Shown: positions 24,007 to 27,165 of the stretch, piece after piece
Layout of the letters: each line of letters begins with the position of its first letter
Position numbering within the stretch: position 1 is the first letter of the stretch
Assembly: GCA_038729465.1 (NCBI GenBank)
Contig: JAVYRZ010000007.1
Span: 28,692 to 63,708, forward strand
DNA: 35,017 nt
Direction: 5' to 3'
From: Thermoplasmata archaeon
GTDB lineage: Archaea; Thermoplasmatota; Thermoplasmata; Thermoplasmatales; ARK-15
The notes under the pieces: model-generated
Database searches by the model: none
What the model was told of the DNA's origin: nothing
Seen by the model: only the letters and a program-made list of their open reading frames with translations
Made by a program: the position numbers and the translations under genes

Positions 24007-24213
24007 ATGGAAAAAATGTACGAGTATTTGAGCTTGACCATGATAATCTTCGGATTCATATCTCTTTTAACCGGGGTATTTATAACATATACTATAAAGG
24101 CCCTAACAAACATGTTTTTCTTTGAGGATCTTTTCATTGGAATCATAATGTTTTTCCTGTTCATAATAGGTAGCATGATAGTTTGGATATTTGGCATAAA
24201 ATCCAGAAAATAA
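24007..24213 (+). CDS. small two-segment membrane protein, unknown function
   Basis: Not recognised. A 68-residue protein with two hydrophobic segments (about residues 8-30 and 43-64) and a short basic tail. Either ATG 24007 or ATG 24016 could be the start. GGAG at 23991 lies 12 bases before the first. A 15-codon ORF (ATG 23984, stop at 24031) in another frame, with in-frame ATG 23999 better placed after the same GGAG, overlaps the start. It is the first gene of a likely operon with the triple-module protein (20 bases downstream). Confidence 0.55.
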   Translation: MEKMYEYLSLTMIIFGFISLLTGVFITYTIKALTNMFFFEDLFIGIIMFFLFIIGSMIVWIFGIKSRK

Positions 24214-24219
24214 AAAAAT

Positions 24220-24224
24220 GGAGG
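24220..24224 (+). promoter_or_regulatory. ribosome binding site deciding start of triple-module protein
   Basis: GGAGG eight bases before ATG 24233. It overlaps the upstream in-frame ATG at 24218, which is therefore unlikely to be the start. Confidence 0.6.
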
Positions 24225-24232
24225 ACAAAAAC

Positions 24233-24796
24233 ATGGCAGATTCAACAGCCACAAAAAATCAGATAGAATTCATAAAAAAGCTTTGTGAAGATAGTAGTGA
24301 TAGAGAATCTAAGGTAACGGAATATTTGAACATAAAGGGCAAAGATGATGTTAAGGATCTATCTATGCAAGAAGCCTCTGAATTGATAGACTCTCTGAAA
24401 AAGATCAAGGGGCCTGAATCCGATAAGAAAGATGTACTCGCAACAGGAAAGCAGCTCACATTTATTACAAAGTTGCAGGATACAGAAGAGCGAAAAAACC
24501 AGATAAGCAGCTACTTAGCAGAGAAAAAGAAAGAGAACATAAACAGCCTTACTATGTCTGAAGCATCATCTTTAATAGACAGGCTTATGCAATTGAAAGG
24601 TGGGCCAAGAACAAACAGTGCTGATAACTTAGCCACAAAAAAGCAGATCCAGTTTATCAAGAATCTACAGGATACAGATTCAAAATTAAGATTTGCGCTG
24701 AGTTACTTGAAGGATCTTAAAAAGATGAGCGTGGAAGAGCTCACAAAAAAAGAAGCATCGACGCTTATTGAAAAATTGAAAGATATAAAAAAATAG
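24233..24796 (+). CDS. protein of three tandem ATxKQIxFI...EASxLI modules
   Basis: A 187-residue, Lys/Glu-rich protein built from three copies of a ~55-residue helical module (about residues 6-60, 70-124 and 134-187). Each copy opens with ATKNQIEFIKKL, ATGKQLTFITKL or ATKKQIQFIKNL and closes with SMQEASELIDSLKKIKG, TMSEASSLIDRLMQLKG or TKKEASTLIEKLKDIKK. Single copies of similar modules are, from memory, found at the C-terminus of some phage and plasmid recombination or ssDNA-related proteins. A protein consisting only of three of them is unusual. It has no catalytic motif, Cys or membrane segment, so a binding or scaffold role is likely. The next gene encodes a Hef-like helicase, suggesting a DNA-fork context. 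Confidence 0.75.
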   Translation: MADSTATKNQIEFIKKLCEDSSDRESKVTEYLNIKGKDDVKDLSMQEASELIDSLKKIKGPESDKKDVLATGKQLTFITKLQDTEERKNQISSYLAEKKKENINSLTMSEASSLIDRLMQLKGGPRTNSADNLATKKQIQFIKNLQDTDSKLRFALSYLKDLKKMSVEELTKKEASTLIEKLKDIKK

Positions 24797-24803
24797 TTAT
24801 AAT

Positions 24804-24810
24804 CTTTTTT
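24804..24810 (+). terminator. short T tract after triple-module gene
   Basis: A run of six T begins about 8 bases after the stop, ahead of the separate promoter of the helicase gene. Confidence 0.3.
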
Positions 24811-24821
24811 AAAATGTAAAA

Positions 24822-24831
24822 ATATTTAAGT
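24822..24831 (+). promoter_or_regulatory. TATA-like box of helicase gene
   Basis: ATATTTAAGT lies 26-35 bases before ATG 24857, the expected distance for a leaderless archaeal mRNA. It coincides with an upstream in-frame GTG (24830), which argues against GTG as the start. Confidence 0.5.
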
Positions 24832-24856
24832 GAATATTTATTACAAGTTCATAAAT

Positions 24857-26413
24857 ATGGATTATATAGTTCATCCTTTTATTAACAAAGATAAAATCGA
24901 AGCTCGAGAATTTCAGGTAAAAATTGCAAAAAACTCACTTGAAAAAAATACACTTGTAATTTTGCCTACAGGGATGGGTAAAACGGTTATTGCTACGCTT
25001 GCAATAGTAAACGTTTTGAAAGAGAAAGGACCAAAAATATTGTTTTTAGCACCTACTCGGCCACTTGTAAAGCAACATGAATACACACTTACAGATTTTA
25101 TATGTGGATTTAAAATTGGCAGCGTTACGGGTTTGGTAGACAGCAAAACTCGTAAAAAAGTATGGGACGATAATGATATTATAATTGCTACACCTCAGGT
25201 CGTAGAAAGCGACTTAAAAAATAATTTGATAGATCCGTCCCAGTTTAAGCTTGTGATATTTGACGAGGCACACAAATCAATTGGCAACTACGCATATACT
25301 TTTCTAAGCAATGTATTCAGCAAATATTCTCATATCATAGGGTTTACAGCCTCGCCAAGCTCGAAGGCCGAAAAGATAGAAGAGATAATGCGCAATTTAC
25401 AGATTGGCAATTTAGAAGTAAGAAATGAAAGTGATGAAGATATAAGTGAGTATTCTCACGAGATCAGCATAGACTGGTATAGATTAGACATGCCTGCAGA
25501 ATTGGCTCCATTGCATAGCCAGCTGAAACAGTTATATAATGATATTATCTTAATGCTTGAAAAATCTTCTTTATTTTCAGGCAGCACAAAAATAACCAAG
25601 CGAAATCTCATTGAGGCTCAAAAAAAGGCAAGCATATTTATTAAAGAGGGTAAAAAAGAGTATTTTTCAATAATATCTACAATTTCCATGGCGATCAAGG
25701 TGGATCAGGGGATAGAATATCTAGAAACACAGGGCTTTGATTCTTGTAAAGAATACCTGGAAAAGATAGTAACTGCTGGAAACTCAGAAGCGGGATCTAA
25801 AGCAGATAAAAAACTCGTAAAAACAGTAGGATTCGTCAATGCTGTAATCACTGCCAGAAACTTAGCAGAGAAAAATATAGAAGATCCAAAATTAAGTGCC
25901 ATTTTGAAGCTAGTAAAACGCCAGATCTCTATTAAGCCAGATTCAAGGATAATAGTTTTTACAAATTTCAGAAATGTAAATAACAACATTTACGAATCAT
26001 TAAAAAAAATAGAAGGTATAAAACCTCTGAGATTTGTGGGGCAGGCAAATAAAGAGTCTGATGCGGGGCTAACACAAAAAGAACAGGCTGAAATATTGGA
26101 TAGATTTAGGAGCGGAGAGTTTAATGTTTTAGTATCTACACAGGTTGGTGAGGAAGGTCTGGATATCCCGCAAACAGATCTGGTAATATTTAATGAGCCC
26201 ATTCCTTCCGAGATCAGAAGCATTCAGAGACGTGGAAGAACAGGCAGAAAAAGAGCTGGTAAAGTAGTAATTCTGATTTATAGAAATACAAGAGACGAAA
26301 TATATTTCTGGTCCAGCAAAAATAAAGAACGGAAGATGAAAACTCAGATCGAGAAGCTGAAAAATACTGATCATAGAAAAAAGAAGGGACAGACCACAAT
26401 ATTTGAATTTTGA
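24857..26413 (+). CDS. Hef/FANCM-type SF2 helicase without nuclease domain
   Basis: A 518-residue superfamily 2 helicase related to the helicase half of archaeal Hef, which remodels stalled forks and branched DNA. Motifs: LPTGMGKT (Walker A, 37-43), APTRPLVKQH (Ia), ATPQVVE, DEAH (136-139), FTASPS (III), VSTQVGEEGLDIP (V) and QRRGRTGR (VI). The Hef-specific insertion lies between the RecA domains (about 200-300). Full Hef carries a C-terminal ERCC4 nuclease; here the protein stops after a basic tail ending GQTTIFEF, which resembles a PCNA-interacting (PIP) motif. A separate XPF-like nuclease gene elsewhere would be expected. ATG 24857 is chosen because of the TATA box spacing; the frame extends to GTG 24830. 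Confidence 0.88.
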   Translation: MDYIVHPFINKDKIEAREFQVKIAKNSLEKNTLVILPTGMGKTVIATLAIVNVLKEKGPKILFLAPTRPLVKQHEYTLTDFICGFKIGSVTGLVDSKTRKKVWDDNDIIIATPQVVESDLKNNLIDPSQFKLVIFDEAHKSIGNYAYTFLSNVFSKYSHIIGFTASPSSKAEKIEEIMRNLQIGNLEVRNESDEDISEYSHEISIDWYRLDMPAELAPLHSQLKQLYNDIILMLEKSSLFSGSTKITKRNLIEAQKKASIFIKEGKKEYFSIISTISMAIKVDQGIEYLETQGFDSCKEYLEKIVTAGNSEAGSKADKKLVKTVGFVNAVITARNLAEKNIEDPKLSAILKLVKRQISIKPDSRIIVFTNFRNVNNNIYESLKKIEGIKPLRFVGQANKESDAGLTQKEQAEILDRFRSGEFNVLVSTQVGEEGLDIPQTDLVIFNEPIPSEIRSIQRRGRTGRKRAGKVVILIYRNTRDEIYFWSSKNKERKMKTQIEKLKNTDHRKKKGQTTIFEF

Positions 26414-26464
26414 AGCAACAGCAACTATAAATAACTCTTTGTAATATTCGATTGTATACAGAGT

Positions 26465-26537
26465 GGGCTGGTAGATCAGTTGGTAGATCGCCTCCTTGGC
26501 ATGGAGGAGGCCCTGGGTTCAAATCCCAGCCAGTCCA
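26465..26537 (+). tRNA. tRNA-Ala(GGC)
   Basis: A complete 73-base cloverleaf read by eye. The acceptor stem GGGCTGG pairs with CCAGTCC and includes G3:U70, the alanine identity pair. The D arm is GATC/GATC, the anticodon stem is CCTCC/GGAGG with loop TTGGCAT (anticodon GGC at 26498-26500), and the T arm is CTGGG-TTCAAAT-CCCAG. The discriminator is A, CCA is not encoded, and there is no intron. Its 3' flank is a mobile-element scar. Confidence 0.95.
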
Positions 26538-26722
26538 TTAGTACTGGACTCTAAAGTTTTTGGGCTCAGAAAAAAGTTCAACTTTCTCACCTCGTTTATA
26601 GCGTCTTTTTGAGATGGATGCAGATAGATCTGCGTACTAGACGGATTTTCATGCCTTAATAATCGAGCAACATAATAGACAGACAGCCTTTTTTTCAATA
26701 ATTCTGTGGCATATGTATCTGT
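26519..26722 (-). pseudogene. C-terminal fragment of a tyrosine recombinase (integrase)
   Basis: Minus-strand frame from 26722 to the TGA at 26519-26521. It encodes a typical integrase C-terminus: TYATELLKKRLSVYYVARLL, then RHENPSSTQIYLHPSQ, and a short helical tail. The Tyr in STQIYLH is the likely catalytic nucleophile. The preceding H-x-x-R box and the rest of the protein are missing: a stop (TAA at 26723-26725) lies directly upstream in frame. The frame runs through the 3' end of tRNA-Ala, so the fragment abuts a classic integration target. It is most likely the remnant of an integrated plasmid or virus. Confidence 0.65.
26532..26550. repeat. inverted repeat at tRNA-Ala 3' end, possible attachment core
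   Basis: AGTCCA and TGGACT are perfect inverted copies of six bases around a 7-base spacer. The left arm is the last five bases of the tRNA acceptor strand plus the discriminator. Geometry of short arms around a 6-8 base spacer resembles tyrosine-recombinase core sites, and an integrase fragment lies alongside. It could equally be a tRNA terminator hairpin. Confidence 0.35.
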
Positions 26723-27165
26723 TTAGAGTTATATCTAAGTTCAAGAAATGAGATATTCTCCAATCTGGATAATATTGTCATTGTATCTATGAGAACGTGC
26801 TCATCTCTCTCTGTAAGTACTCTCATGACCTTAATGCTCTAGTCCTCAGGAAGATGGAAGAGCATTCTTGACAGGGGATCAGGAGACATACTCTCATCCA
26901 TTATCCTTGCCAGATATGTCTTCTCATACATGTAATGCACGGATTTCATGGGTAATGATTGTATGTTCCTATATTCATAAACCTCTCTTATGCCAGTTAT
27001 GGGACTTTTCTTCACTATACCGTTCTTTGTAACTACACCAATGTATTCCCTCGTCACCTTCCTTTCTCTCTTGAGACTCTTGTCATACCTCTTCATGAGC
27101 TTATAGGCATAATATCGATCACCAAAATTCCTAATCTCTATCAGTTTTCTCTTCTGCTTTGTAAC
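26695..27165 (-). pseudogene. transposase N-terminal fragment, interrupted
   Basis: The minus-strand frame enters near 27165 (KLIEIRNFGDRYYAYKLM) and continues KRYDKSLKRERKVTREYIG, VVTKNGIVKK and SPDPLSRMLFHLPED to a TAG at 26839-26841. The opening resembles N-termini of IS4/IS1634-type transposases (G-x-RYYxY, then YDxxxKRxRK and EYIGxV). The same frame continues past the TAG (VLTERDEHVLIDTMTILSRL) to a TGA at 26695, where it meets the integrase remnant. No DDE catalytic core is present, so this is a dead fragment. The start codon is unclear; the first Met is at 27096. Family assignment is from pattern only. Confidence 0.45.

Follow-up and report, generated by a model that had tools for sequence, protein, structure and literature searches.

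The GemA protein of phage Mu (PF06252, phrog_286) has been linked to supercoiling. DUF3072 (PF11272; phrog_987) is represented by a model of 56 positions that has no assigned function, and no paper on it was found in the literature searched. Red-beta, the Bet protein of phage lambda, has a C-terminal domain (CTD; residues 193-261) that binds lambda exonuclease and SSB but not DNA (PMC8303780). Among archaeal helicases of the Hef/FANCM type, binding of Hef to PCNA has been reported for Thermococcus, Pyrococcus and Thermoplasma (PMC7776575).

The window analysed here is a stretch of 35,017 nucleotides from a Thermoplasmata archaeon (contig 7, 28692-63708). Its relatives place it in Thermoplasmatales, the named orthologues coming from Thermoplasmata. 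It holds a 192-aa ORF made up of three modules of ~52 residues with short linkers and no other domain, lying beside a gene for a shortened Hef. The features are as follows:

24007..24213, + strand: membrane-like ORF of 68 aa, 5' of the module gene and outside the module protein; no family match
24218..24796, + strand: gene of the three-module protein, an ORF of 192 aa that probably starts at ATG 24233, giving 187 aa
24220..24224, + strand: GGAGG, Shine-Dalgarno-like, 8 nt 5' of ATG 24233 (from the sequence)
24242..24409, + strand: module 1, residues about 9-64 (from the alignment)
24434..24601, + strand: module 2, residues about 73-128 (from the alignment)
24626..24793, + strand: module 3, residues about 137-192 (from the alignment and an AF2 model, pLDDT 95.9)
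24830..26413, + strand: Hef/FANCM helicase without the nuclease half, an ORF of 527 aa that probably starts at ATG 24857 (from NF010337 and the PDB)
26387..26410, + strand: C-terminal PIP-like motif GQTTIFEF (from the sequence; conserved in the family)

The first-pass annotation had placed the beginning of the feature at 24007, which falls in the separate membrane-like ORF rather than in the module protein. The true start is likely ATG 24233, since GGAGG is suitably spaced from it and the methionine is invariant among the aligned orthologues. Identity to module 3 is 42% for module 1 and 45% for module 2. Across 16 proteins the modules cluster by position (1, 2 or 3) and not by protein, with 3 label changes where shuffles gave 23, so the three-module structure is not chance; together with the alignment this confirms the earlier description of a protein made of modules only. 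Grouping by position rather than by protein argues for one triplication before the spread of the family and, judged from these sequences, the three-module form is the product of a single old event. The invariant polar residues, T-x-x-Q and T/S-x-x-E, look like helix caps, and no conserved binding surface is evident, which weakens a reading of the modules as docking domains. A scan for transcription signals, which does not cover archaeal promoters, gave nothing clearly above chance. PADLOC returned no match for the module protein, for which a defence role was rejected, and only generic helicase matches for the neighbouring gene.

Of the described families, DUF3072 shares with the window protein the pattern T-x-x-Q ... 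EAS-x-LI. The match lies above the cut-off (2.9e-7; 30.7 against 27.5 bits) and covers three stretches, the score being the sum of three weak matches to a model that spans one module; the match to phrog_987 reaches 2.9e-10. A phylum-wide DUF3072 search gave one weak match and did not detect the window protein, the modules of which fail singly, and the curated DUF3072 is therefore too narrow for the module family. Against GemA the window protein scores below threshold (18.3 against a cut-off of 27 bits).

Structural comparison points towards Red-beta. The model of module 3 alone has a pTM of 0.79, as against 0.45 for the three-module model (pLDDT 83), which suggests folded beads on flexible linkers. 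When the single module was compared with the PDB by Foldseek, ranks 1-4 were all Red-beta CTD chains (6m9k, 8tg7 and 8tfu; probability 0.72-0.92, TM 0.65-0.71) and rank 5 was the SSAP 80-alpha Sak. The E-values of the CTD matches, 0.4-1.1, are singly not significant, as is usual for 56 residues, and the weight therefore rests on the agreement of several entries; these span two kinds of complex, 6m9k with lambda exonuclease and 8tg7 and 8tfu with an SSB peptide. Three-helix bundles are also simple folds, a caveat which, with these E-values, tells against the docking reading. The best credible match of the three-module model is likewise the Red-beta CTD, and phage ERF proteins are among its BFVD matches. 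The module as predicted would share with the CTD a three-helix fold of similar size; both have ELTxxEA at the beginning of the third helix and occur as a tail on recombination proteins.

At the sequence level the link is weaker. Alignment by hhalign of the module profile with Red-beta-type tails covers all three helices with an E-value of 0.0032, at a probability of about 10% that counts against the docking reading, and a second profile-profile comparison with Red-beta CTDs scores 18.4, where 40 column shuffles reached 12.3 at most. When lambda Red-beta was compared directly and on its own, the alignment was confined to the third helix, and PDB sequence searches, whether with the protein or with the profiles of orthologues and of modules, produced chance-level matches only. 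Sequence and model are thus suggestive of homology with the Red-beta CTD, not proof of it. Unlike Red-beta, the window protein has no annealing domain, carries three copies in one polypeptide and is encoded on a cellular chromosome. A further difference concerns SSB: Red-beta binds the acidic bacterial tail, whereas the SSB of the window's genome (L061:1327-1791, contig 2) has a basic, Phe-ending tail, RGKRDFRPRRQF. This weakens the docking reading as modelled on Red-beta, and the partner of the module or its binding chemistry would therefore differ.

The first reading had also proposed that similar single modules cap recombination proteins of phages or plasmids, and three proteins bear this out for recombination or DNA metabolism. 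In a genome of the sister family discussed below, a 208-aa SSAP-like protein (L079:3428-4054) carries the module at its C-terminus (hhalign E 9e-7). Its N-domain matches phrog_10048 and phage genes located between Gp157 and replication genes; we read it as an annealing domain from its KMAKKR...IFTQD signature and gene position, with no database assignment. Four further genomes match this protein, in two of which the match covers the module. On a viral contig (L066) an HNH protein has the module at its end, and on a Mu-like viral contig with transposase and ATPase genes (L067) a GemA contains it (hhalign E 2.6e-9). The relatives of the L079 annealing-like domain in phages D6E and E2 lack the module, a tblastn search of phage records with single modules brought no useful match, and the window's genome yielded no annealing protein of the L079 type, the last a point against the docking reading. 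As side observations, the SSAP-like proteins with a C-terminal module (L079, L085 and L086; Thermoplasmata) have no functional name in the family libraries used, and on the viral contig L066 (4653-5153 and 7800-8507) the HNH-plus-module gene lies near an ERCC4 nuclease and a long ORF resembling DNA polymerase.

We therefore propose, tentatively and with somewhat less than even confidence, that the module protein works as a free-standing trivalent adaptor for docking, of the kind seen in phage recombinases, and that its role probably lies in recombination or replication. Each module would be a ~52-residue three-helix domain like the partner-recruiting C-terminal tail of phage single-strand-annealing proteins, and by analogy with that tail would bind protein rather than DNA. 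Three such modules on flexible linkers, with no enzymatic domain, could hold multiple copies of the same partner, or different partners, and bring them together on DNA that is single-stranded or recombining. That the process served is recombination or replication we infer from the proteins on which the module occurs elsewhere. A bolder form of the proposal, which we consider improbable, is that Thermoplasmatales keep a chromosomal, three-headed form of the phage-recombinase docking tail to mediate recombination or replication; it would be a scaffold that gathers nuclease and SSB and has neither enzyme nor DNA-binding domain. If the proposal is right, DUF3072 would gain a function and a testable class of partner, and cellular archaeal proteins would be linked to phage recombinase tails.

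Could the three lysine-rich helical modules instead make direct contact with DNA, the protein being an accessory factor for nucleoid or topology as has been proposed for Mu GemA? The occurrence of the module in a Mu-type GemA speaks for this, as do the mostly basic orthologues (pI about 7.8-9.4), the pI of 9.7 of module 3 in the window and a weak match of the protein, below cut-off, to the topoisomerase C-terminal repeat. Yet the charge of the window protein is near balance (38 K+R against 34 D+E), module 1 is acidic (pI 5.3), as are two orthologues (L008 and L009, both at pI 5.3), and the isolated CTD of the structural relative Red-beta does not bind DNA (PMC8303780). Unlike the Mu case, no transposition genes are seen beside the module gene of the window. 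Direct DNA binding is on balance an unlikely account.

The distribution of the family bears on the docking adaptor and on a further alternative. In 151 related genomes, searched for the module gene and again with a module profile, modules are present in 59: the window's genome, one genome of another family (f5) and 57 of a single sister family (f6) that belongs to the Thermoplasmatales. Most have the three-module form, some have two modules, and one genus has a lone 60-aa module. Neither search found modules in the other four genomes of the window's own family. Between closely related pairs where it could be computed, dN/dS is 0.01-0.09, and the protein is under strong purifying selection. The genomic location of the gene differs between relatives, and among those named its neighbours are common to close kin only; beside the three-module gene of these relatives no repair gene was found to be conserved, which takes some weight from the docking reading. 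The lone-module gene (L070-L073) is flanked by radical-SAM and class I tRNA synthetase genes, and its cluster includes XPG/FEN1-type and Rad51-family (RadB-like) genes, although one genus counts as one observation.

Such a distribution would also suit a remnant of a phage or plasmid gene that was domesticated, reached the window's lineage from the sister family and now does a job in the host unrelated to recombination. The gene is found in one of the five genomes of the window's family against 57 in the sister family, among whose sequences the window protein falls at a position that the tree does not resolve; relatives of the module occur in phages, and the location of the gene varies. Losses in the other four family genomes would look the same as recent transfer, however, and for the window's copy transfer and survival after losses elsewhere both fit. 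A stable three-module form under strong constraint across deep divergence, moreover, implies a lasting host function. We consider a remnant with an unrelated job a minority explanation.

The earlier idea of a multivalent adaptor at replication forks, linking the adjoining helicase, PCNA and another partner, survives in part: the modules have a predicted fold resembling the protein-docking domain of a recombinase, but the tie to this helicase fails. In the window the two genes are adjacent on the same strand, 33-60 bp apart, the Hef has a PIP, and elsewhere the genome encodes an XPF-family nuclease whose ERK motif is intact, all of which would suit a Hef-specific adaptor joining helicase, PCNA and nuclease. 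In 32 other genomes holding both genes, hef is never adjacent to the module gene, an exclusion that is less strict where the genes lie on different contigs of draft genomes; in three genomes with both on one contig the distance is 181-867 kb. No hef was found at E<=1e-30 in 26 of the 59 module-bearing genomes, 11 of which are >=95% complete, and hef occurs without the module in 78 genomes. The association is negative (odds 0.23, kinship ignored), and there is no sign of mutual dependence between the genes.

Relatives within the window's family tell the same way: the other four members have hef and lack modules. In three of these four, hef lies directly 3' of a marC-like gene (read from sequence), and it faces an ATPase-like gene, whereas in the window's genome the marC homologue is on another contig than hef. 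The simplest account of the adjacency of module gene and hef is thus that it arose by local rearrangement and is coincidental, confined to this genome. Lack of a conserved neighbourhood among relatives had been named at the outset as grounds for refutation, and for the Hef link this is what is seen. As a general rule the Hef-specific adaptor is largely refuted, and we regard it as very improbable. Directly after hef lies a tRNA-Ala (GGC) gene (26464-26538, +), and past it an 85-aa ORF (26839-27096, -) with no Pfam match resembles a gene remnant, which fits a rearranged locus.

The helicase itself was correctly described at the outset as a Hef without its nuclease half. It matches NCBIfam NF010337 with 614 bits (cut-off 610) over positions 2-515 of 781, that is, the whole helicase half; positions 516-781, the ERCC4-HhH nuclease half of full Hef, are missing and the ORF ends. 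In the PDB its best match is 1wp9 (E 3e-112), the helicase structure of an archaeal Hef. The terminal GQTTIFEF was also found as reported, and helicase-only Hefs with similar PIP-like ends are present in all five genomes of the window's family. In full-length Hef, GQLRLFDF is placed between helicase and nuclease, and the simplest reading of these sequences is that the terminal PIP is the former inter-domain motif, left at the C-terminus after loss of the nuclease. The Hefs of the window's family form one clade (100/99) apart from other helicase-only groups, and the starred branches of the tree require the state to have changed at least twice. Most simply, the nuclease half would have been lost once in this family, before it diverged, and separately elsewhere; if so, Thermoplasmata lost the nuclease on more than one occasion and retained the PCNA motif at the new end. 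A separate 218-aa XPF-family nuclease with ERK and HhH motifs, on contig 21 of the window's genome (L053:2931-3587), is a possible replacement for the lost half. Short Hefs sampled from Thermoplasmata (L055-L059; L210-L229) mostly have PIP-like ends, degenerate in some, and some Thermoplasmata genomes have full-length and helicase-only Hef together.
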